DNA of 60,177 bases, from the NCBI GenBank assembly GCA_014762505.1, contig JABURS010000029.1, positions 1 through 60,177 of the forward strand. The letters are read 5' to 3'. The notes below the pieces were generated by a model. The model was not told where the DNA came from, made no database searches, and was given only the letters and a program-made list of their open reading frames with translations. This document shows positions 30,494 through 44,286 of this stretch, one piece after another. This stretch comes from Chromatiales bacterium (lineage in GTDB: Bacteria; Pseudomonadota; Gammaproteobacteria; SpSt-1174). The position numbers were made by a program, and so were the translations under genes. The first letter of the stretch is position 1; each line of letters starts with the position of its first letter.

Positions 30494-30509
30494 CGAACCA
30501 CCACGACTG

Positions 30510-30773
30510 TCACTTCTGTCGACTGGAACGCTTCGCTGGGGGGTGCTTATGGGCCTGCGTGTACGCATCCAGTAACCGGCGGATCATCTTCTGGTACTGG
30601 GTGTGATGCTTTCTTGCCTCCTGCTTGAAGAACTCGACGCTTTCCCTGCTCAGGGAAATCGTGACCTTCACCGTGTCCTCCTTGAACACCAGCGCCTCCG
30701 GCGGAGGCAGGAAGTCCTGCACCACCTTCAAAGGGCCCATGGGCTCATCAGTGTATTTGATTTTCCCGCTCAT
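30510..30773 (-). CDS. brnA: BrnA/CopG-type antitoxin
   Basis: An 87-aa antitoxin with a linker N-terminus (MSGKIKYTDEPMGPLKVVQD) and a C-terminal ribbon-helix-helix: VKVTISLSRESVEFFKQEAR, then YQKMIRRLLDAYTQAH. It should neutralise the BrnT-like toxin encoded just upstream and repress the shared promoter. The ATG at 30773 lies inside the toxin gene (26-bp overlap), so the two are translationally coupled in the toxin-first order typical of BrnTA. A longer frame from 30827 lacks support. Confidence 0.82.
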   Translation of the reverse strand: MSGKIKYTDEPMGPLKVVQDFLPPPEALVFKEDTVKVTISLSRESVEFFKQEARKHHTQYQKMIRRLLDAYTQAHKHPPAKRSSRQK

Positions 30774-31035
30774 AAATCTGTTTGCCTTTACGCCAGTAAC
30801 CGGCGCCATATATCCGGATTCGGCCATTGCGGTAGGTGAATCGCACAGTCAGGACACCCACACCCGATCTACCAAAACAGTAATACCGTTTTTCACCCTG
30901 ACCATGTGCCAGGTCTTCCGCAATAACGCGATGTGGGTCAGCGAACGCAGTCTGCGCTTCCAGAAAGGAAACACCATGCTTCATCTGATTGGAGAGATCC
31001 TTCTCTGGATCCCATTCAAAGCTTTCCTTGCTCAT
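30748..31035 (-). CDS. brnT: BrnT-family toxin
   Basis: A 95-aa BrnT-like ribonuclease toxin. FEWDPEKDLSNQMKHGVSFL is the family N-terminus, followed by AFADPHRVIAEDLAHGQGEK (with the conserved E-K/R) and a beta strand RFTYRNGRIRIYGAGY. The usual IRIISAR motif reads IRIYGAGYWRKGK, a variant that may mark a subfamily or weakened activity. The antitoxin gene overlaps its end. The gene has a lower GC content than its neighbours. An inverted repeat CATAT-AATG-ATATG lies 34 bp upstream. Confidence 0.78.
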   Translation of the reverse strand: MSKESFEWDPEKDLSNQMKHGVSFLEAQTAFADPHRVIAEDLAHGQGEKRYYCFGRSGVGVLTVRFTYRNGRIRIYGAGYWRKGKQIYERENQIH

Positions 31036-31068
31036 GCATGAACACTAGCAGAAGCCCGGCCCAACAGC

Positions 31069-31082
31069 CATATAATGATATG
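31069..31082 (-). promoter_or_regulatory. Putative BrnA operator
   Basis: Inverted repeat CATAT (31069-31073), AATG, ATATG (31078-31082) in an AT-rich stretch upstream of brnT, overlapping TATAAT/TATATG promoter-like sequence. Autorepression by the ribbon-helix-helix antitoxin is inferred. Confidence 0.4.
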
Positions 31083-31146
31083 TATTTTATTGTGGGATTT
31101 TCCCCGCATGCCTTGATCACATTGCCCCATGAGGAGAAACCATAAG

Positions 31147-31212
31147 ATAGAAAGATACTATCAATACTTTTGTTATTATTGATTGGCACTATTAGCATGC
31201 AGGGCCTATAAA
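31147..31212 (+). promoter_or_regulatory. OxyR-like site and promoter of katG
   Basis: ATAG (31147-31150), 7 nt, CTAT (31158-31161), then at the same 7-nt spacing the weaker TTTG and TGAT, ending at 31183. This is the four-part OxyR layout. The -35 TTGGCA (31183-31188) is directly adjacent and TATAAA (31207-31212) follows after 18 bp, a standard activator arrangement. Confidence 0.6.
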
Positions 31213-31254
31213 CCTCACTGTGCAATCAATAAACCCCCACCACCAAAGGAGTGA

Positions 31255-33447
<2,193 letters not shown>

Positions 33448-33453
33448 TCGCCA

Positions 33454-33529
33454 GGGAGCCGGGTCACCCGGCTCCCGAACCCAAGGCGTCAATGACAAGG
33501 GCGGCGTTTCGCGCGAAACGCCGCCCTTT
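33454..33529 (+). terminator. Double hairpin terminator after katG
   Basis: The first stem GGGAGCCGGG/CCCGGCTCCC (33454-33476) has a 3-nt loop. The second is a 15-bp stem (33497-33511 with 33514-33528) followed by TTTCTTAT, the likely intrinsic terminator. Confidence 0.8.
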
Positions 33530-33593
33530 CTTATGGGTTGGGGAAAACCATGTTCGTCCCTGAACGATGATTAGTGCTGCAGTCATCCGGGTT

Positions 33594-33632
33594 TTCGATT
33601 ATTGCGAGTTCGATTATTGCGATTAATATCGC
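33594..33632. promoter_or_regulatory. Tandem 15-bp repeat and palindrome before the antitoxin gene
   Basis: TTCGATTATTGCGA recurs in two adjacent 15-bp units (33594-33608, 33609-33623) and runs into GCGAT-TAAT-ATCGC (33619-33632). The AT-rich block 50-90 bp before the antitoxin start looks like an autoregulatory operator region. Confidence 0.45.
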
Positions 33633-33682
33633 TTCAAGTAGACAACTACTAGCCACGCGACAATTCCGACGGGAGTATGGCC

Positions 33683-34126
33683 ATGAACACCGCAGAACGT
33701 CTCCCTGATAGCGAGACCACGGATCTTGCCCGCGACAGCGCCACCGAGCTGAGCAAGCTACTGGCCAACATGCCGGAGGCCGATCGTGCCCGGGTGCAGC
33801 TCGATGGCATCGAACTCATCCTGCCCCGGGACGCCCTCGCCCTGCTGCGCGATATCCTCACGGAAATGGCCCAGGGCAATGCCGTCACCCTCGTGCCTAG
33901 GCACGCCGAGCTCACCACCCAGGAGGCCGCCAACCTCCTCAACGTCTCGCGGCCGCACCTGATCAAGCTGCTGGAGGAAGGCCAAATACCCTTCACCCGC
34001 ACCGGCACCCATCGCCGCATCCGCTACGAAGACCTGATCGCCTACAAGGCCGAGCGCGACCGCCAGAGCAAGGAGGCCATGGAGGAACTGGCCAGGCAGG
34101 CGCAGGAACTGGACATGGGGTACTGA
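33683..34126 (+). CDS. Excisionase-type HTH antitoxin
   Basis: A 147-aa protein with a helical N-terminal part and a C-terminal MerR/excisionase-like helix-turn-helix: LTTQEAANLLNVSRPHLIKL then GTHRRIRYEDLIAYKAER. This type of antitoxin is encoded upstream of PIN-domain toxins, and its stop overlaps the start of a PIN gene (TGATG). The ATG at 33683 has a GGGAG site at 7 nt; the ATG at 33677 is too close to it. The cognate toxin is broken, so this may be a solitary antitoxin or transcription regulator. Confidence 0.8.
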   Translation: MNTAERLPDSETTDLARDSATELSKLLANMPEADRARVQLDGIELILPRDALALLRDILTEMAQGNAVTLVPRHAELTTQEAANLLNVSRPHLIKLLEEGQIPFTRTGTHRRIRYEDLIAYKAERDRQSKEAMEELARQAQELDMGY

Positions 34127-34273
34127 TGCGATTCGTCGTGGTCTATGACGCCTGTGTGCTCTATCCCGCGCCGCTGCGGGATTTCCTGGTGCCTGGCCAC
34201 GACGGGGTTGTTTGCCGCGAAATGGAGCGAGCGTATCCACGAGGAATGGATGCGGAGTACAAAGCCGACATAA
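34126..34273 (+). pseudogene. Frameshifted, truncated PIN-domain toxin
   Basis: It starts as a PIN toxin (MRFVVVYDACVLYPAPLRDF, with the catalytic Asp of YDAC). Around 34192 one base appears to be missing. In the next frame the family sequence resumes as LATTGLFAAKWSERIHEEWM up to a TAA at 34271-34273. Only about 49 of the roughly 150-200 residues expected remain; the rest is replaced by the 53-bp repeat that begins at 34271. No active nuclease can be made, since most acidic residues are gone. Confidence 0.85.
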
Positions 34274-34323
34274 AGCCTTTTGGCCGATTAATCAGAGACT
34301 TGGCCTGGTCCGACCCCAGCCGG
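34271..34323 (+). repeat. 53-bp direct repeat, copy A
   Basis: It aligns without gaps to 36451-36503 at about 42 of 53 positions, sharing CGATTA, TCAGAG and TGGTCCGACCCC. It begins exactly where the PIN pseudogene frame ends. Confidence 0.7.
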
Positions 34324-34340
34324 CCCAGAGCGGGGAACCT

Positions 34341-34369
34341 TTGCTTGAAATAGTATCAAATACTGATAC
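34341..34369 (+). promoter_or_regulatory. hicAB promoter with operator palindrome
   Basis: TTGCTT (34341-34346) and TGATAC (34364-34369) are 17 bp apart. The inverted repeat GTATCA-AATAC-TGATAC (34353-34369) covers the -10, as expected for autorepression by HicB. Confidence 0.55.
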
Positions 34370-34378
34370 CATTCTGAC

Positions 34379-34639
34379 ATGAACCGCAGGCACCAGAGCA
34401 CCCTGGAAGCGATATTCACGGACCCGGTCCAGTCGAACATCGTCTGGACAGACATCGAGTCCATGCTCAAGGCCCTTGGTGCCGAAATCAGCGAGGGGCG
34501 GGGCTCCCGCGTCCGGATTGCGCTCAACGGCGTGCGGGCGGTCTTCCATCGCCCACACCCGGAGAAGGAAACCGACAAAGGCGCGGTGAAATCCATGCGG
34601 CGGTTTCTCGAAAACGCCGGCATAGACATCAAGAGATAG
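34379..34639 (+). CDS. hicA: HicA-type mRNA interferase toxin
   Basis: An 86-aa HicA toxin with the double-stranded RNA-binding-like fold. The N-terminus LEAIFTDPVQSNIVWTDIES, the central GAEISEGRGSRVRIALNG and the catalytic-histidine region AVFHRPHPEKETDKG are all intact. HicA cleaves mRNA during stress. It is followed 25 bp later by hicB, the toxin-first order usual for this system. An operator-like palindrome covers its promoter. Confidence 0.9.
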   Translation: MNRRHQSTLEAIFTDPVQSNIVWTDIESMLKALGAEISEGRGSRVRIALNGVRAVFHRPHPEKETDKGAVKSMRRFLENAGIDIKR

Positions 34640-34664
34640 ATAGAGACGGAGGACCGGGGGAAAC

Positions 34665-35003
34665 ATGATCCTCGAATACAAAGGCTACATCGCCAAACTC
34701 GAGATCGACGCCGAAGCCGAGTTGATTCATGGCGAGGTGATCAATACCCGCGACGTCATTACGTTCCAGGCGGATTCCATCCACGACCTGCAGCAGGCAT
34801 TCGCAGATTCGATCGATGACTACCTGGCCTTCTGCGCCGAACGCGGCGAGGCACCGGACAAGCCCTTCTCGGGGAAATTCATGGTGCGCAGCAATCCGGA
34901 GTTGCATCGCGACCTGGTCGCGGCCGCCGCGAGATCCGGCAAGAGCCTGAATGCCTTCGTCACCGACACGCTGGACAAGGTGGTGCATTCGAATCACACG
35001 TGA
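34665..35003 (+). CDS. hicB: HicB-type antitoxin
   Basis: A 112-aa HicB: a partially degraded RNase H-like N-terminal domain (YKGYIAKLEIDAEAELIHGE, then FQADSIHDLQQAFADSIDDY) and a C-terminal ribbon-helix-helix (GKFMVRSNPELHRDLVAAAA, then LNAFVTDTLDKVV). It binds HicA and represses the operon. The pair looks intact and functional, unlike the neighbouring PIN system. Confidence 0.9.
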   Translation: MILEYKGYIAKLEIDAEAELIHGEVINTRDVITFQADSIHDLQQAFADSIDDYLAFCAERGEAPDKPFSGKFMVRSNPELHRDLVAAAARSGKSLNAFVTDTLDKVVHSNHT

Positions 35004-35040
35004 ACCGTGGCTGCCCCCGGCTAGAACACCATAACACCAG

Positions 35041-35087
35041 CCGGACTCACCCTAAGTGAACGGGGAGTCCGGGGCCTGAGCTCCCCG
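35041..35087. terminator. Overlapping hairpins between hicB and the MOSC gene
   Basis: CCGGACTC (35041-35048) can pair with GAGTCCGG (35065-35072), and CGGGGAG (35061-35067) with CTCCCCG (35081-35087). The two stems exclude each other. They lie between convergent 3' ends; there is no T-run. Confidence 0.45.
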
Positions 35088-35104
35088 ACTGGTCCAGGCG
35101 ACGG

Positions 35105-35971
35105 TTACGCCATGAACACCTCATCACCCACGCCGATCTCGCCCGCCGTGACGATATCCGCGTAAATCCCCAGGTTCTGGTCGGCGTCTTTCACGATGCG
35201 TCGCAGGATGCCCTTGTCCTCACCGATCGCGGACTGTTGGCGCGTCACCGCGCCGCAACGCGGGGCCGTATCACTGCAATCAACCTGCGCGGACCCGACC
35301 CTCAGACGCCGGCCCAGCCAGGCCTGCTCCACCAGCCCCTCCATCCCCGGCAGGGTCTCGATCACAAGGTTGGGGCGAAAGCGCTCGATGTCCCAGTCCG
35401 ACTGCGGGTGTAGCGCCTGCATGTGCGCCAGGCTCGCGGTGGTGAGGATATGAAACGGCGAGACCAGGAAGAAGGTACCCGGGAGGGTGACGTAGTCCTG
35501 CATGGCTTGCGGCAGGTTATCGAGGTCCGGCAGCGGCGGTTCCCCGGCCTCGCGCTCGAACGTGGCCTTCAACTCTTTCAGCCAGGTGTGGGCGTCGGCC
35601 TTGTAACGGCGATAGAACGCCTCGTGCTCGATCGGCCTCAACGACCGCAAGGCACTGTCGTGTCCCAACAGTGCCGAGATCCGCTGATGAATGCCCGGAT
35701 CGTCGCCCGCCAGCACCTCGCCACCGGGGAACTGCACCTCGACCGCACCAAGTCCCAGACCCGACCCATCGCCTATACAGCGAGCCCGGCACTGCAGCAG
35801 CGACGGCCGGAACTTGCAACTCTGTATCTCCTGGCGCTTCAGGTCCTGCACGGCCCACAGGCGATCGCCCTGCACACCGCGTGCGTCCAGATGCGCCGTG
35901 CCCAACGACTCACCCGCCATCCCCTTCACCGGGTAGCGCCAGATCGCCTTGATACGTCCAAGCCTGGTCAT
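35105..35971 (-). CDS. MOSC domain protein
   Basis: A 288-aa protein with an N-terminal MOSC_N beta-barrel (IKAIWRYPVKGMAGESLGTA and GVQGDRLWAVQD) and a C-terminal MOSC domain with FRPNLVIE and VDCSDTAPRCGAVTRQ, where the conserved cysteine of molybdenum-cofactor sulfurases lies. Family members bind or transfer sulfur to the molybdenum cofactor, or detoxify N-hydroxylated bases as YcbX and YiiM do. The role here is not clear. It lies between HicAB and the CRISPR array. Confidence 0.85.
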   Translation of the reverse strand: MTRLGRIKAIWRYPVKGMAGESLGTAHLDARGVQGDRLWAVQDLKRQEIQSCKFRPSLLQCRARCIGDGSGLGLGAVEVQFPGGEVLAGDDPGIHQRISALLGHDSALRSLRPIEHEAFYRRYKADAHTWLKELKATFEREAGEPPLPDLDNLPQAMQDYVTLPGTFFLVSPFHILTTASLAHMQALHPQSDWDIERFRPNLVIETLPGMEGLVEQAWLGRRLRVGSAQVDCSDTAPRCGAVTRQQSAIGEDKGILRRIVKDADQNLGIYADIVTAGEIGVGDEVFMA

Positions 35972-36545
35972 GTCATCGCTCGCAGTGTCCAGATCGACGC
36001 CTCGTTAGTAAAGTGGACGGCTCGACGCCGGGCATGATGCACGGCCGCCCAGACTGAGGCGTCTCGTGCACCAAAAACATTCAGAACACTCCTGCATGGG
36101 CAGCTATGGATCTCGCACGAAGCCTCCGACTGCCAGCCACAACCCACGGAACCGCCCGTGCCGGCTTCCTTCTGCCCCGCGGCACAACTGGCCACAGCGG
36201 AACTTACCGGCAGACTTGCAAATAACAGACCAGCGGGTGAACTGCTGGGTACATCCCCCATCAAGGGAGAGCACGCCAACAGCCCAAGCCGCGTATGGCA
36301 GGAGAGCGACTTGCGCAGGAACCAGGAAAGGAACATGGATGAGAGAAATGGAAAAGGGGGCAGATTGAGGCGACCCCGGTTCGGCTCGAAGCTTAGAGCG
36401 CGCGTTTCAAGGACAAAAATGAGCCTCTAAGACTGATTTCAAGGCCAATACAAGGCCTTTTTATCGATTACTCAGAGCCTTAGCTTGGTCCGACCCCGGC
36501 CAGGCGGCGGTCACTTCCGATTCTTCTTCGTGGACCGTTCCATCC
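35972..36545. other. Intergenic stretch left of the CRISPR array
   Basis: 574 bp without a recognisable gene. Open frames of 90-120 codons exist on both strands but have no ribosome sites, family motifs or normal composition. The stretch contains copy B of the 53-bp repeat (36451-36503). Because crRNAs read rightward, the last 100 bases before 36546 are the likely array leader or promoter region, but no confident -10/-35 pair was found. Confidence 0.6.
36451..36503 (+). repeat. 53-bp direct repeat, copy B
   Basis: It aligns to 34271-34323 at about 79% identity (see copy A). It ends 42 bp before the first CRISPR repeat and may be part of the leader or mark the edge of an inserted segment. Confidence 0.7.
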
Positions 36546-39500
36546 GTTGTGATTAGGCCTCAGGCTTCAGTCGGTTACACTATTACTCACGTTGAAGGCC
36601 ATCGCTGACATGTTGTGATTAGGCCTCAGGCTTCAGTCGGTTACACTTCAGACTCGATCGAGTCGACGCGGTCAATTGTTGTGATTAGGCCTCAGGCTTC
36701 AGTCGGTTACACTGAGAGCTTATATGTGGGAAGTCTCTTTCATGTTGTGATTAGGCCTCAGGCTTCAGTCGGTTACACTATCCAGCGCCTGCTCGGTCAC
36801 GAGAAGCGCGTTGTGATTAGGCCTCAGGCTTCAGTCGGTTACACTAAACCTGGTGGTGCAGTCTGCGTATGTTCGGTTGTGATTAGGCCTCAGGCTTCAG
36901 TCGGTTACACTGCCAACCCCGACCACCTGCTCCACCAATGGGTTGTGATTAGGCCTCAGGCTTCAGTCGGTTACACTAGAAGCTGGCAGCGAAGTTGACC
37001 GCCGCGCGTTGTGATTAGGCCTCAGGCTTCAGTCGGTTACACTGTCGCAGTAGATCGGGCGAGTGGCCTTGCTGTTGTGATTAGGCCTCAGGCTTCAGTC
37101 GGTTACACTGAGAACGAGGTAAATATGCCACTCGGAAGGGTTGTGATTAGGCCTCAGGCTTCAGTCGGTTACACTACCCCCCGGCGGCGATTACTGCTGC
37201 CATTGTTGTGATTAGGCCTCAGGCTTCAGTCGGTTACACTCGGCCGCCCGGTGGACGTGGCGGTAAACCAGTTGTGATTAGGCCTCAGGCTTCAGTCGGT
37301 TACACTCGGCGCCATCGACTACCGCGGCGCGTACAAGTTGTGATTAGGCCTCAGGCTTCAGTCGGTTACACTAGTGCAGCAAGGACGGATTGACGTACTG
37401 CAGTTGTGATTAGGCCTCAGGCTTCAGTCGGTTACACTGAGGGTCGTTGACGTTGGCCACCACCACAGGTTGTGATTAGGCCTCAGGCTTCAGTCGGTTA
37501 CACTGATACTCTCGAAGCGCTCAAGGACGAGGAAGTTGTGATTAGGCCTCAGGCTTCAGTCGGTTACACTCTTCGTCGGCCTGCACATGGGCCTGTGCCA
37601 GTTGTGATTAGGCCTCAGGCTTCAGTCGGTTACACTGGGTGTTACAACCACCCCGACTAGAGCAGCGTTGTGATTAGGCCTCAGGCTTCAGTCGGTTACA
37701 CTGACACTGGCGCGCACGGATCCAGGTCGAAAGTTGTGATTAGGCCTCAGGCTTCAGTCGGTTACACTACACCGGACCGCCGGCATGCACGCGGATCAGT
37801 TGTGATTAGGCCTCAGGCTTCAGTCGGTTACACTATTCCGCTATCGCTCGCGCCCTCCTCGTACGTTGTGATTAGGCCTCAGGCTTCAGTCGGTTACACT
37901 TCCAGGCCCTTGCTCTCGCCCCACAGCTCAGTTGTGATTAGGCCTCAGGCTTCAGTCGGTTACACTCCTGGCGCTGGATGTTGAGCTGCTTGCCGCGTTG
38001 TGATTAGGCCTCAGGCTTCAGTCGGTTACACTCACCTGGGTGAGCGCGTCATCGTTTGGCGTGTTGTGATTAGGCCTCAGGCTTCAGTCGGTTACACTAC
38101 AAGACCCCGCTGCCGCGGGGCCTCTTCAGTTGTGATTAGGCCTCAGGCTTCAGTCGGTTACACTCCGCTATCGCTTCCTCGCCTCGAAGAACACGTTGTG
38201 ATTAGGCCTCAGGCTTCAGTCGGTTACACTGTGTTGGCCAGTGCCCGGGCGCCGCCGCGGTTGTGATTAGGCCTCAGGCTTCAGTCGGTTACACTCGTCC
38301 CGCGCAGACAACCGTCACCAAGCAAGTTGTGATTAGGCCTCAGGCTTCAGTCGGTTACACTATCGAGCGCAGGCGGTTGGACCTGGCGAAGGTTGTGATT
38401 AGGCCTCAGGCTTCAGTCGGTTACACTTTTTCCTGGCTCTTTGATTCGGCCTTGTGCGTTGTGATTAGGCCTCAGGCTTCAGTCGGTTACACTGTCGGTC
38501 ATCCGCACCACCAAGCGACGTTAGTTGTGATTAGGCCTCAGGCTTCAGTCGGTTACACTCCCGCGAACAACGAGACGATGCACGCCAGCGTTGTGATTAG
38601 GCCTCAGGCTTCAGTCGGTTACACTTGACCCCTTCCTCGCCGCCCTCGAATGGCTGTTGTGATTAGGCCTCAGGCTTCAGTCGGTTACACTACCGGCACC
38701 GACGCCTACCAGGCGCAGGGAGTTGTGATTAGGCCTCAGGCTTCAGTCGGTTACACTATTGGCGGTCAGGGCCACGGACCCCAGCGCGTTGTGATTAGGC
38801 CTCAGGCTTCAGTCGGTTACACTAGGCGCTGCACGGGCGAGCGGGCGCTGAGGGTTGTGATTAGGCCTCAGGCTTCAGTCGGTTACACTCAGCAGAGCAA
38901 CATCCTCGGCACCGTGTCAGTTGTGATTAGGCCTCAGGCTTCAGTCGGTTACACTCCGAGAACGCCGGTTTTACCGACCGCGCCAGTTGTGATTAGGCCT
39001 CAGGCTTCAGTCGGTTACACTAAGTTGTCCATGTCGATGTCGGCCACTGCCGTTGTGATTAGGCCTCAGGCTTCAGTCGGTTACACTGCATAAGGCGATG
39101 TTCTCTGATGTCGGCCCGTTGTGATTAGGCCTCAGGCTTCAGTCGGTTACACTACGAGCACGAGGAGGCGCTGGGTGCGGCGTGTTGTGATTAGGCCTCA
39201 GGCTTCAGTCGGTTACACTTGGCAAGGATGCGACCAGCAGCAGCGGCGAGTTGTGATTAGGCCTCAGGCTTCAGTCGGTTACACTGTAGTCGTTGGCCAC
39301 GCTCTCGAAGGCGCGGTTGTGATTAGGCCTCAGGCTTCAGTCGGTTACACTCCTGGCGCACGGCTTCGCTGTAGGTCTGGGGTTGTGATTAGGCCTCAGG
39401 CTTCAGTCGGTTACACTTGCGGATCGCGAAAGGAGTGTGGCATGAGCGTTGTGATTAGGCCTCAGGCTTCAGTCGGTTACACTACCGAAACCCCCGCCCC

Positions 39501-39615
39501 GCCTAGCCAGCAGGTTGTGATTAGGCCTCAGGCTTCAGTCGGTTACACTCACAGAACGCGGGGAACAAATCGTCGTGTTGTTGTGATTAGGCCTCAGGCT
39601 TCAGTCGGTTACACT
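36546..39615 (+). CRISPR. Type II-C CRISPR array, 47 repeats and 46 spacers
   Basis: A 36-bp repeat starts GTTGTGATTAGGCCTCAG, continues GCTTCAGTCGG and ends TTACACT. I stepped through every unit: 47 repeats with starts 66 bp apart, except that spacers 10 and 26 are 29 nt instead of 30. All copies appear identical, including both end copies. Orientation comes from the tracrRNA: the anti-repeat on the plus strand pairs with the plus-strand repeat, so crRNAs read rightward, toward cas2. The 66-bp period equals 22 codons, which creates long false open frames repeating VIRPQASVGYT. The last repeat ends 32 bp from the cas2 stop, so array and cas operon converge. Confidence 0.99.
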
Positions 39616-39647
39616 CCTTCTGAGGCAAGTCACTGAATAGAAAGGAA

Positions 39648-39980
39648 TTAGAGCAGGATGAGCTGATCTGGCGGGGCGTCCATCGGCCGGCGGCACTTGC
39701 CATAGAACAGCTCCATGCGGGCGAACTGTTTGTCGGTGATCCTTGCGACCCGAATTTCACCGTCCGGGGGCAGGGCCTGTTTGACGCGTTTGACATGGAC
39801 GTCGGCATTCTCGTCGCTGGCACAATGACGCGCATAGACTGAATACTGCATCATCAGGAAGCCATCTTCCAGCAGGGCCTGCCGGAACTTGGTGTAGTGT
39901 CGGCGTGCCTCGGCATTGTCCGTTGGCAGGTCGAACATTACCAATACCCACACGGTCCGCAGCCCTCCAAAGACAATCAT
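39648..39980 (-). CDS. cas2: CRISPR-associated Cas2
   Basis: A 110-aa Cas2 of the type II family. The first strand RTVWVLVMFDLPTDNAEARR carries the conserved Asp, followed by YTKFRQALLEDGFLMMQYSV. It dimerises and bridges Cas1 dimers in the spacer-integration complex. The ATG at 39980 overlaps the cas1 stop (ATGA). It is the last gene of the cas operon and ends 32 bp from the last CRISPR repeat. Confidence 0.95.
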   Translation of the reverse strand: MIVFGGLRTVWVLVMFDLPTDNAEARRHYTKFRQALLEDGFLMMQYSVYARHCASDENADVHVKRVKQALPPDGEIRVARITDKQFARMELFYGKCRRPMDAPPDQLILL

Positions 39981-40873
39981 GGCTCCAGGGCGCAAGGAAA
40001 GCACCAGCCGGCCTTCAGCGTGCCTCGCTGCAGCGCCTCGCAGAACTGCTGCACGCAGCGTTGCGTGGCGTTCATGAGCGGCATCTTGTCATCCCCCAGT
40101 CGCACCGGCTGGGCCATCAGGCCCAGCAAGGCCTGTTTGCTGTCCTGATTGATTTCTATGATGTCCCGCCGGGCCAGTTCCACCACCTGGGCATCCACCA
40201 GTGGCCGAATCGGTTCCATGAGGTCATCCGCCAGGGCATAGGCGTTGTACTGGTTGTGATGGTGCAGGCCCAGGGCGGGGTGCAGGCCACTGGCGACCAC
40301 GGCGCGGGCGGTCATTGCGCGAGCGATGGCATAGCCGTAATTGAGCAGTTGGTTGATGCCGGTTTGATCCCGGTCACGCCGGAATTGTTTGCCGAACAAT
40401 GCGGGCCAGTAGTATTTGCAGGCCTGGGCCTCCACGTTGTCCGGGTCACCCGGTTTGACCTTGGAGGTCAACTGTTTCAGCCGCTGTGTGGCACTGCTCT
40501 TCAGTTCTTCTAGCAGCCACCCCTGATTGGTTAGCTTGCCCCGCACAACCTGCTGCCAGAGCCGTTTCTTGAAAGTGGGCTTGACAGCGACCTGGGCGCG
40601 CAGCACCTTGCCGTGCAAGGTGTGGCCGCTGATGGGCAAGGCCAGCAGGGCCGGGGTATGGCGCTCGTCGCAGCTCACCAGCGCGGTGTTGTGTTGGGCG
40701 CAGTGTTGCAATACCGCCTGGGTCATGGTCACGGCGGGGTGGTCCGCGATCAGCATGCCGATGTCCTCGAACGGCACGGAGGCAATCACCTCGTTGTCCC
40801 GTTCCACCAAAAGCTGGCCGTGCTTTACCTTCAGCCAGGCTGGATTGCTGATTTCGATGGTGCGCTTGATCAC
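39977..40873 (-). CDS. cas1: CRISPR-associated Cas1 integrase
   Basis: A 298-aa Cas1, the integrase that inserts new spacers. The metal ligands can be placed: E148 in DNVEAQACKYYW, a histidine of LGLHHHNQYN (about residue 205), and E220 in ADDLMEPIRPLVD. The N-terminal beta domain (WLKVKHGQLLVERDNEV) is of the type II-C kind. It starts with GTG at 40873, overlapping the cas9 stop by 4 bp (GTGA), and is coupled to cas2 downstream. Confidence 0.96.
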   Translation of the reverse strand: MIKRTIEISNPAWLKVKHGQLLVERDNEVIASVPFEDIGMLIADHPAVTMTQAVLQHCAQHNTALVSCDERHTPALLALPISGHTLHGKVLRAQVAVKPTFKKRLWQQVVRGKLTNQGWLLEELKSSATQRLKQLTSKVKPGDPDNVEAQACKYYWPALFGKQFRRDRDQTGINQLLNYGYAIARAMTARAVVASGLHPALGLHHHNQYNAYALADDLMEPIRPLVDAQVVELARRDIIEINQDSKQALLGLMAQPVRLGDDKMPLMNATQRCVQQFCEALQRGTLKAGWCFPCALEP

Positions 40874-43800
40874 GGCATGATATGCCCCATGCGATTGATT
40901 GCGAGTTTCTCTAGGCCCATTTCATTGAGTAGTGCGCTAATTGACTTGCGCACAACCCTATCACCGCTTTCCGTCGTGGCGTCAGAATGTAATCGTAGTG
41001 TGGCGCGCCCAGAGTCCTTCTCCAGTTTCTGGATGCGATAAACCCTGCCATCCTTGAGTTTCACCATATCATTTATAGCCAAGGCGGTGACGTAGGCATG
41101 TTTATCGTCCAGGTGGGTGTCCAGAATCGGCTGTTTCACGCCATTGACCTGCCGCGCCCGCTGCGCCGCCTCCAGCATGGTGACGAAGCGGGTTTTGATG
41201 CGCGGGCTTTGTATGTCACGGAAAACCTCCACGTGATGGGTGTTGCCGTAAACCATGTAGCGGAAGGGCCGTTCGTTTTTGTCGCGCACCGGCAACTGCT
41301 CCTCCGCCAGGGCATCCAGGTTGCGGAAGCTGGCCCGCTTTACCCTGACGCGCCGTATGCGAGAGCCATTGGGGTGTAACACCGGATTGTCCGGAGTGAA
41401 CGCTGCCTTGCTGTCACCCTGATGTTTGTCCAGATGGGCGCGTACTGCCTGTTGCACGGTCGGGTCGATGATAGCGTCGATGTCCTTTTTCTTGATGCTG
41501 CCGTCGAGCAACTTGCGGTACACGGTATGGACCTTGCCGTCCTTCTCCACCAGCACCCCGGAGGCGGTGTCCTCGTGCAGCGCGCCCCGTAGGCGCCAGG
41601 CTGGCACGTGGGACACGATGGTCTTTTTCACCAATGCATCGGTATCCTGTGCAAAGCTGGCCCACGGCGGGTCGATATGGATATCGTCGGGGCCATGCAC
41701 ATCGGCCCGCTGCGCCAGTTTCGCCATGCCGTGGTAGAGGCGCCGGTCCGTCAGGGCCACCACCGCCGCGTCGATCAGATGGTGGCGGTGATCGGTGCGG
41801 TTCTTCTCGTCGGCGCTGCCCAGGATTTGATGCAGGCCCCAGATATGCCGCAGCCAGGCGGTGATCTGACCCTTCACCACGGACACGTCGGTGCCCAGTG
41901 GTTTCAGATAGCCCAGCGCCACCCGGCTGATGTAGCGGGTATCGGTGAGCTGGCTGTTGATGAAATCGTCCAGGCCCTCCAGATCCCCTTGTCGCAGCAT
42001 GCGGTCGGCCTTGGCCTTGAGGGCGCGCCCCTTATCCGCCCAGGACTTGCTGCGCTGCACGATCTGCTCCCAGCGTTGTGCGTCGCCGGAGAAGGCCTGC
42101 CAGGGGGTGCGATTGCCCTTGCTGCGGTTCTCACCGGCCAGACAGATCACTTTGTTGATGTAGGAGTCGTCCAGTGACTGGCTGTACGGCAGGATGTGAT
42201 CCATCTCCACCGCATCGCTGAAGAGCTCGGTCTTGCTAATAGGCCTGCCCGAGTAGGCGCAACAGCCGTCCTGATCTTTCCACAGGCGGTACTTGATCTG
42301 ATCGTCCCGCTTGGCGCGTTGGCCGGCATGGATGGCCTGGAAGTGCTCCCGAGCCTCGTCGTTGGCCTTGGTATTGGCGGCTTGTTGTTTGTTGTAGGCG
42401 GCGAGCTGCCTGCGGTTCATCTTCAGCTCACGAGCCATTTCCAGACGAATGGCCGCCGGTTTGCCGTGCCGGCGTATGATAGCGTTGACCAGCTTGCGCA
42501 ATTCATGCAGCGCCTTGTTGACCACTGGGTTGCGGGTTTCCGGTGGCGTGGCGAGATAGTCGACGATATCGTCTTGCGCCACCTTTTGTGCCCGCATGCG
42601 ATAGCCCGCCGCCTGGAGCGCATCGGTATAGATTTTCCCCGCCTCTAGATGCGGCAGGATGCGCCGCATCGCCTTGAGGGACAAACTGCCGTGGTCGGCT
42701 TCCAGTTCCAGTACAGCGAGGCGCACCGCGTCGGTGGTGGGGAACTGCCAATGGTTGACGAGCCTGTTCTTGAGGGTCTTTTTGTTCTTTATGGTGATCA
42801 GATCGTCGACGAGCAGGGACTGCTGCCCCGGGGGCATGTGATCCCAGGCCTCGCCGATCACCCTGCGGATGGCGCAGGCGGTGCGATTACCAGACAGCTT
42901 CTTGACCTCGCTGTTCTCCAGATTGAACTTCTGGGTGCGGTCCAGCCCTACCGCCTTTCTTGCCTTGGCCCAACTCAGTTCCGGCGCATGTTCTAATGCG
43001 TTGATCAGCTTGCTGCGCTGTTCATCGGACAGCCGCAGATAGCCGCCGACATGGCCCTCAAAATATTGCAGGTTGTTGATGTCTTGCAGATAGCGAAAAC
43101 GCTGGAACTCGAGCCGGGCGCGGTGCGCCCGGTTGTATTTCGGCTCGAACTCGCACTTGCCGAGCCGGTCGGCCCGGAAGCGCAGCGGGCGTTGGTAGAA
43201 AATGATGTGTTCGATCTGGTCCCAATCCGCGTCGCTCAATACCTCGGCGAATGGCGCCGCTTGGCGTTCCCGGATAAGGGCGAACTCTTCCCGGTACATC
43301 TGCCGTGAGGTGCGCAGGTCCTCGGGGACGTGTTTGCGGTTGCGTCGGCAGGTATCACCATCCAGGGAAGCCAGATACTCACCGAGAGTCCGCTTGTTGG
43401 CCCGGTGGATGGCCTGGGCCAGCTGGGCAATCGAATGCTTGAAGGCGCTTTCTTCAGCATCGAGGTCGCCCTTTTCGTCCTGGTCCAACTCTTCGATCAG
43501 ATCGGCGGCGTCCGGATCGTCGATCAATTCCTTGAGTAGCGTCTTTCGGTTGCTCTGAAACCCACGCCTCTGCGCTAGATGCAACAAAATCCGGCCTAGT
43601 TCATGCTTGGCCAAGTCGTCATCAAGCGCCTTGGCCCGTAGTTGGTAGGGATCCCCCAATGTGTTGAGCACCTTCTCCCTTTGGGCGGAATCGCGAACGG
43701 CTTCCGGCAACAAGTCCTTCTTGATGAGGAAGTTCTCCAGCCGCTGACGACGGCGCGCACGACGCTCGATCAAGCGCCGCGCCAGTCGCTTGCCGCGCCG

Positions 43801-43968
43801 CTTTGCGTTCTTGGGTGTCGGGGTTTTATCCTCCACGGCACGAGGGAAAATGCGAACCCCGCCGTCTAGGTATCCAGCAGGTTTGCCGTCGCCGTCCAGC
43901 GATAACAGCGCCCAGCCTATGGAGTTGGTGCCAAGATCCAGGCCCATAATGTAGTTTGCAGTCTGCAA
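40870..43968 (-). CDS. cas9: Compact type II-C Cas9 nuclease
   Basis: A 1032-aa Cas9, shorter than the Neisseria enzyme (1082) and longer than the Campylobacter one (984). RuvC-I is MGLDLGTNSIGWALL with D11. The arginine-rich bridge helix is RRLIERRARRRQRLENF. RuvC-II is IRLEMARELKMNRRQ with E510. The HNH domain has CCAYSGRPI, EMDHILPYSQ with H591 and ENRSKGN with N614. RuvC-III is HHLIDAAVVAL with H730 and D733. All catalytic positions known from SpCas9 are therefore present, and the enzyme should cut both strands. The start is TTG at 43968 with AAGGAG 7 nt upstream. No csn2 or cas4 is present, defining subtype II-C. The C-terminal PAM-interacting domain is complete, but its PAM cannot be read from sequence. 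Confidence 0.97.
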   Translation of the reverse strand: MQTANYIMGLDLGTNSIGWALLSLDGDGKPAGYLDGGVRIFPRAVEDKTPTPKNAKRRGKRLARRLIERRARRRQRLENFLIKKDLLPEAVRDSAQREKVLNTLGDPYQLRAKALDDDLAKHELGRILLHLAQRRGFQSNRKTLLKELIDDPDAADLIEELDQDEKGDLDAEESAFKHSIAQLAQAIHRANKRTLGEYLASLDGDTCRRNRKHVPEDLRTSRQMYREEFALIRERQAAPFAEVLSDADWDQIEHIIFYQRPLRFRADRLGKCEFEPKYNRAHRARLEFQRFRYLQDINNLQYFEGHVGGYLRLSDEQRSKLINALEHAPELSWAKARKAVGLDRTQKFNLENSEVKKLSGNRTACAIRRVIGEAWDHMPPGQQSLLVDDLITIKNKKTLKNRLVNHWQFPTTDAVRLAVLELEADHGSLSLKAMRRILPHLEAGKIYTDALQAAGYRMRAQKVAQDDIVDYLATPPETRNPVVNKALHELRKLVNAIIRRHGKPAAIRLEMARELKMNRRQLAAYNKQQAANTKANDEAREHFQAIHAGQRAKRDDQIKYRLWKDQDGCCAYSGRPISKTELFSDAVEMDHILPYSQSLDDSYINKVICLAGENRSKGNRTPWQAFSGDAQRWEQIVQRSKSWADKGRALKAKADRMLRQGDLEGLDDFINSQLTDTRYISRVALGYLKPLGTDVSVVKGQITAWLRHIWGLHQILGSADEKNRTDHRHHLIDAAVVALTDRRLYHGMAKLAQRADVHGPDDIHIDPPWASFAQDTDALVKKTIVSHVPAWRLRGALHEDTASGVLVEKDGKVHTVYRKLLDGSIKKKDIDAIIDPTVQQAVRAHLDKHQGDSKAAFTPDNPVLHPNGSRIRRVRVKRASFRNLDALAEEQLPVRDKNERPFRYMVYGNTHHVEVFRDIQSPRIKTRFVTMLEAAQRARQVNGVKQPILDTHLDDKHAYVTALAINDMVKLKDGRVYRIQKLEKDSGRATLRLHSDATTESGDRVVRKSISALLNEMGLEKLAINRMGHIMP

Positions 43969-44048
43969 AGTGGCTCTCCTTATGGTCGACTATTCGCTAG
44001 TCGCGTCCAGGCGGCGGACGGGAAATATTCTGCCACCCTATTTGCGCG

Positions 44049-44078
44049 TTAATCTTGTCCGGCGATTATTCATATGCT
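44049..44078 (+). promoter_or_regulatory. Candidate tracrRNA promoter
   Basis: TTAATC (44049-44054) and TATGCT (44073-44078) are separated by 18 bp, placing the RNA start near 44085, just before the anti-repeat. The -35 is weak. Confidence 0.45.
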
Positions 44079-44084
44079 AGGTTT

Positions 44085-44197
44085 TCATTGAGCGTAACCG
44101 ACTGAAGCCTGAGAGTTCTTTTCATACCAAGAGATGAATTTCTCGCAGGCACCACCGGTAACGGTGACCAACGGCCTCCCAGCGGGGCCGTTTTTTA
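44085..44197 (+). ncRNA. tracrRNA of the type II-C system
   Basis: The anti-repeat 44094-44113 is a perfect 20-nt complement of repeat positions 14-33. After an internal loop of about 7 by 9 nt, CATACC (44123-44128) pairs with the repeat's first bases GUUGUG at five of six positions, one of them G-U, forming the lower stem next to the spacer. A short hairpin GAGA/TCTC (44131-44144), a second CACCG-GTAA-CGGTG (44153-44166) and a terminator AACGGCC/GGCCGTT with a T-tract (44170-44196) follow. The layout matches the Neisseria II-C tracrRNA. It is transcribed divergently from cas9. The 5' end is estimated from the promoter-like element; the 3' end is set by the terminator. Confidence 0.9.
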
Positions 44198-44246
44198 TTT
44201 TCACACCGAAAAACAAGAAGGCCATCCCTTTCGTGACGCCCGAAAC

Positions 44247-44275
44247 GATGATGCCCCGGAATCCGGGGCATCATC
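44247..44275. terminator. Hairpin after ggt
   Basis: GATGATGCCCCGG (44247-44259) pairs perfectly with CCGGGGCATCATC (44263-44275), loop AAT, 12 bp beyond the ggt stop. The T-run on the minus strand is short (GTTTC). Confidence 0.65.
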
Positions 44276-44286
44276 AAGTTTGACAC

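Follow-up and report, generated by a model that had tools for sequence, protein, structure and literature searches.

The 60,177-nucleotide stretch of DNA analysed here, hereafter the window (Chromatiales bacterium, assembly GCA_014762505.1, contig JABURS010000029.1, positions 1 to 60,177), carries what we consider, with high confidence, to be a complete and probably working type II-C immune system of the CRISPR-Cas9 (clustered regularly interspaced short palindromic repeats) kind, acquired within a defence island and predicted to be active. This reading follows from matches to family models, invariant catalytic residues, a full-length predicted fold, an array of 47 repeats, a duplex between the repeat and a trans-activating CRISPR RNA (tracrRNA), the support for the clade in which the Cas9 falls, and a spacer that encodes a phage peptide.

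The cas9 gene occupies positions 40,870-43,968 of the minus strand and encodes 1,032 amino acids from a TTG start. An AAGGAG ribosome-binding site (43,976-43,981, minus strand) lies 7 nucleotides 5' of this codon, and the start and residue numbering used in a preliminary description of this DNA are therefore sound. The open reading frame lies exactly where that description had placed it; the product scores 645 bits against the NCBIfam Cas9 model TIGR01865 (cut-off 100), and Pfam recognises the domains HNH_4, RuvC_III and Cas9_a, the last of these corresponding to the helical lobe. The RuvC residues D11, E510, H730 and D733 and the HNH residues H591 and N614 are intact, and all six are invariant in a 22-sequence alignment with Cas9s from related genomes, which bears out the earlier claim of a complete set of nuclease residues at these positions. 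The gene shows no frameshift, internal stop or active-site loss. Its product had also been called smaller than most Cas9s: the length holds, but it is ordinary for its own clade, in which Cas9s measure 1,019-1,061 amino acids. A weak Pfam match to DUF4265 near the C-terminus (residues 957-1018; 22.9 bits, below the cut-off of 27) was taken as chance.

An AlphaFold2 model of the protein, built with the 22-sequence alignment (mean predicted local distance difference test 79.8; predicted template modelling score 0.47), matches Cas9s over its whole length in Foldseek and VIA-align 2 comparisons, with Nme1Cas9 ranked first. The alignment to Nme1Cas9 extends across residues 3-1032, and comparison with Nme1Cas9-type structures gave Z 30.4 with a root-mean-square deviation of 14.3 over 879 residues, and Z 30.3 with 8.0 over 778. 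In the model the complete bilobed fold is present; structure prediction had been proposed for the C-terminal domain, and the full-length model includes this end, which would interact with the protospacer adjacent motif (PAM). A cross-match to the NCBIfam Cas9d model raises the alternative that the protein belongs to the compact Cas9d (II-D) nucleases instead of II-C, but at 175 bits this match is far under the Cas9d cut-off of 375 and the general Cas9 model reaches 645 bits. With 1,032 amino acids the protein is also longer than the 747-residue Cas9d nuclease described in PMC11706934, and both fold and locus match II-C; we attach next to no probability to this assignment.

Judged from operon layout and fold, the locus is of type II-C, in keeping with the original assignment, for which the absence of csn2 and cas4 and the best structural match, Nme1Cas9, both speak. 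Directly after cas9, on the same minus strand, cas1 (39,977-40,873; 298 amino acids) overlaps it by 4 nucleotides, carries the active-site motifs NVEAQ (146), LGLHH (201) and DLMEP (217), and scores 287 bits against the type II Cas1 model; cas2 follows (39,648-40,004, minus strand; 118 amino acids) and matches the type II Cas2 model. Only these three genes stand between the array and ggt, an interval with neither csn2 (II-A) nor cas4 (II-B), and the layout is therefore that of II-C. The array, at 36,546-39,615, consists of 47 identical 36-nucleotide repeats (GTTGTGATTAGGCCTCAGGCTTCAGTCGGTTACACT) and 46 spacers, all different, of which 44 measure 30 nucleotides and two 29, with the CRISPR RNA (crRNA) strand, assigned from tracrRNA pairing, running toward cas2 on the plus strand. 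The repeat length, the spacers of ~30 nucleotides and a tracrRNA with a matching anti-repeat are hallmarks of II-C. No second array of this repeat family exists in the 2.77-Mb genome. All 47 repeats are identical and neither end of the array is degenerate, which is unusual at 46 spacers.

The tracrRNA gene is predicted at ~44,090-44,197 on the plus strand, from a duplex search and from a layout and core that are conserved in seven relatives. At -48.6 kcal/mol the repeat:anti-repeat duplex is the best in the window outside the array (mean -23.5, standard deviation 4.0, over 7,576 stretches). Pairing with the repeat places an upper anti-repeat at 44,090-44,113 and a lower one at ~44,117-44,128, both on the plus strand: the 3' two-thirds of the repeat is paired near-continuously and, after a short bulge, its first bases pair with UCAUACC. 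Beyond the anti-repeat there are two small hairpins, followed by a GC-rich terminator stem with a T-run (~44,171-44,196, plus strand). From this pairing it follows that the crRNA strand is the plus strand and that the tracrRNA is divergent from cas9. In all seven relatives the anti-repeat is found at the same place and has changed together with the repeat of its own genome; such covariation, as comparative sequence evidence, weighs much more strongly than a single fold. The relatives also share a tracrRNA core consisting of CATAMCAA, a stem, CGYAGG, a hairpin and ACC, with a terminator-like GC stem downstream, and in those for which both the array and the cas genes are in hand the array is oriented opposite to the cas genes. 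The preliminary description, which was right that Cas9 comes with its own cas1, cas2, array and tracrRNA, had left the PAM and the guide rules open. For the PAM a tentative prediction is given below; the guide can be read from the sequence, with two RNAs that pair in a bulged repeat:anti-repeat duplex and, beyond it, a conserved core and a terminator.

The repeats of the clade all start with GTTGTG and end with TACACT or TACAAT. In Neisseria, the matching repeat end serves as a -10 box, from which transcription of a crRNA begins; because of the shared ending, each repeat possibly has its own promoter, by analogy. One relative, G227 (L042 4512, upstream 700 nucleotides), shows a codirectional anti-repeat pairing of -37.0 kcal/mol beside the divergent one of -40.5 kcal/mol, upstream of cas9, probably reflecting a partly self-complementary repeat.

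In operation, Cas1-Cas2 would insert spacers of ~30 nucleotides, as is expected of their family, the array would be transcribed on the plus strand, and each repeat would pair with the divergently transcribed tracrRNA. Cas9, like others of its family, would then load the dual RNA and use a C-terminal hairpin to read a PAM on the 3' side of the protospacer, with HNH cutting the target strand and RuvC its complement, in the PAM-dependent double-strand cleavage that the family leads one to expect.

Translated, spacer 12 (37,307-37,336, plus strand) reads GAIDYRGAYK, the peptide with which a phage major capsid protein of the Mu-like/ClpP-fused type ends. Twenty-four of its nucleotides are identical to a prophage capsid gene in another gammaproteobacterium, and 26-27 of 30 are matched in three IMG/VR contigs, from which we conclude that the array records phage. 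The matched sequences are related to the real target without being it, and their flanks are therefore unusable as PAM. The earlier expectation that 46 spacers could reveal the PAM was not borne out, as no convincing phage or plasmid match emerged from the collections searched. In blastn searches with the 46 spacers, 50,697 records of phages and 72,556 of plasmids yielded chance-level matches only (E at least 0.5), and the concatenated spacers gave, among 369 genomes of the class, one perfect self match (spacer 43) and two partial ones (spacers 12 and 35), the 28/30 match of spacer 35 in alaS being probably due to chance. The IMG/VR scan covered 13 spacers, spacer 12 by a codon-degenerate pattern and 12 others in exact pairs, and yielded no protospacer, for spacers 4 and 33 none among the matches listed. 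Protospacers with a common 3' motif were sought in the phage, plasmid, 369-genome and IMG/VR collections and none were found, nor did the arrays of three relatives give anything useful against phages. Spacer 24 (38,099-38,128) is a palindrome resembling a terminator and agrees at 27 of its 30 nucleotides with the Mu-like Chromohalobacter phage YPCBV-1 (34,219-34,248; E = 2), where the avd gene of a diversity-generating retroelement ends; the match is possibly due to chance.

A prediction of the PAM can be made from the protein itself. When its last 233 residues were compared by sequence with solved Cas9s, no significant match was obtained. We aligned the predicted PAM-reading beta-hairpin (E983-R988; codons at 41,005-41,022, minus strand) with that of Nme1Cas9, whose C-terminal sequence was checked against PDB sequences, and hhalign and two MAFFT runs agree in placing E983 at H1024 of Nme1, S986 at T1027 and R988 at N1029. 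The PAM role of these Nme1 residues is taken from a study of Nme1 orthologs (PMC9433092): those with Asp at position 1024 have C as the fifth base of the PAM, and those with His or Asn there have A or G. At the position equivalent to H1024, four rows of the clade carry Asp, two carry Glu (one of them the Cas9 of the window), one carries Gln and another Gly, and the ninth (L017) has an insertion. Since the acidic E983 stands at the H1024 position, a PAM of the N4C type is our tentative prediction, held at rather less than even confidence. The wider proposal, that the clade with its Glu/Asp hairpin residue reads a short C-containing, relaxed N4C-like PAM and that the guide RNA of the enzyme is not common to characterised Cas9s, is more doubtful still and should be interpreted with caution.

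The perfect self match bears on whether the system is active. Spacer 43 (39,352-39,381, plus strand) is identical to a chromosomal site (G000:C37:60033-60062; L020 1501-1530; 3' flank CGCTGGCG) in a tetratricopeptide repeat-like gene beside a ParA-type gene (parA), near dnaA-dnaN-recF-gyrB, and no prophage gene was recognised near this target. With a correct PAM such a match would be lethal, which leaves two readings: an incorrect PAM at this site, or a system that is switched off. The target has G at PAM position 5; it would not be cut under the N4C prediction, and to that extent agrees weakly with it. Several points weigh against an active system with the PAM given above: a core chromosomal gene is the object of a perfect self-targeting spacer; in all collections searched an exact match was found for spacer 43 alone; the alignment of the PAM hairpin is remote (hhalign probability 46%, E 2e-4); and the rule for C at position 5 was set for Asp, whereas this Cas9 has Glu. 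The main rival explanation is an intact II-C locus that is silenced or inhibited, whether because it is not expressed or because an anti-CRISPR encoded at another genomic site blocks it, and that persists as an inactive passenger of the island. Spacer 43 coexisting with its perfect target in a core gene would fit such a locus, as would a TTG start, which may lower cas9 translation, and the foreign look of the cas genes (GC content at third codon positions, GC3, of 0.73-0.81, against mostly 0.85-0.96 in neighbouring genes). However, there is no frameshift, stop or active-site loss, and 47 unmutated repeats with 46 distinct spacers argue for recent activity, at least of the adaptation machinery. 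The flank CGCTGGCG, moreover, need not be a PAM, and is not one under N4C, and the genes around the target are core chromosomal ones, no prophage gene being recognised nearby. We therefore regard a silent locus as unlikely and favour the complete and probably working system.

The match of spacer 43 to a host gene would also suit a Cas9 that serves chiefly to cleave RNA under RNA guidance or to regulate the cell's own genes, with spacer 43 as a regulatory guide, and II-C precedents exist in the Nme and Cje enzymes, which cleave RNA without a PAM (review, PMC6990116). Yet a single gene is matched, the other 45 spacers have no self match at E <= 0.001 and spacer 12 encodes a phage capsid peptide; we judge such a role very improbable.

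The whole CRISPR-Cas locus lies in a genomic island between mutM and ggt (30,494-44,286). This 13.8-kb interval also holds a weak BrnA-like match, katG, a helix-turn-helix protein, HicA-HicB and a MOSC protein. The corresponding regions were compared in two relatives (window 30,494-44,286; L199 3098-6027; L198 2598-4355). In the family relative G002 the island is absent and mutM and ggt are adjacent, with 174 bp between them, and the congener G001, a genome that is 75% complete, has a type IIG restriction-modification gene (867 bits) beside ggt. With the slot empty in one relative, a type IIG gene beside ggt in another and the CRISPR island here, the gap looks like a defence hotspot. Cas9 is absent from both G001 and G002, and this, together with the low GC3 of the cas genes, fits a gain of the locus by transfer. 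The IVYWREL fraction, considered as a possible sign of thermophily, is ~0.41 in a GC-rich genome, from which we draw no conclusion; a 16S gene is not in the assembly. Inmirania thermothiophila was considered as the source and dropped, since the DUF4145 protein reported for it (PMC10799925) is missing from this genome.

Phylogenetically, the Cas9 belongs to an eight-member gammaproteobacterial clade (support 100/100), in which it forms the deepest branch (length 0.6) and shares 44-49% identity with the other members, from Methylobacter (L016), Methylomagnum (L019), a Thiomicrorhabdus metagenome-assembled genome (L017) and further gammaproteobacteria (L040-L043). The tree was built from proteobacterial and other short Cas9s, II-A and II-B references not being among them, and sets a Pasteurella-containing, Nme-type group (100/100) and an alpha/betaproteobacterial group apart as separate clades. 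A Pasteurella multocida plasmid record (NZ_CP113523, L201) has a region that aligns with Cas9 over its full length, with a longest stop-free stretch of 937 amino acids and no cas9 annotated, probably representing a frameshifted gene. No close Cas9 was found in phage records, and a phage-borne origin was dropped. A search of the open-access literature, with the sequence tables of large ortholog catalogues outside it, found no characterised member of the clade, which suggests, but does not prove, that the clade is uncharacterised. No solved Cas9 exceeds about 32% identity to it across the aligned part, which supports the earlier statement that no characterised Cas9 could be matched and speaks against near-identity among solved Cas9s.

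In biological terms this is an ordinary case, another chromosomal II-C system in a defence hotspot. Its value lies in an intact enzyme from a clade far from every solved Cas9, with a guide system that is readable from sequence and conserved across eight genomes. It is a candidate compact nuclease with an orthogonal guide that is directly testable, and is well suited to deciding sharply whether remote II-C Cas9s also follow the Nme-family rule, under which C is read by an acidic residue.

Among known systems, those of its own clade are closest, sharing the length of Cas9, the cas9-cas1-cas2 order where seen, an array opposite to the cas genes, repeats of the form GTTGTGATT...GTTACAMT and a divergent tracrRNA with the same core; they differ in the PAM-hairpin residue, for which the Cas9 of the window has Glu and the other members have Asp, Glu, Gln or Gly. 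Nme1Cas9 and Nme2Cas9 (Neisseria meningitidis) and HpaCas9 have the whole fold, the domain order and type II-C in common with it, but identity is 28-30% and the C-terminal domain of the window Cas9 has no significant sequence match. The repeats of Neisseria, like those of the window, presumably end in a -10-like box. ThermoCas9 and GeoCas9 are likewise II-C, ThermoCas9 being the best sequence match among solved structures (E 9e-89), although identity is about 27-32% over the aligned part and the PAM domain is not alignable by phmmer.

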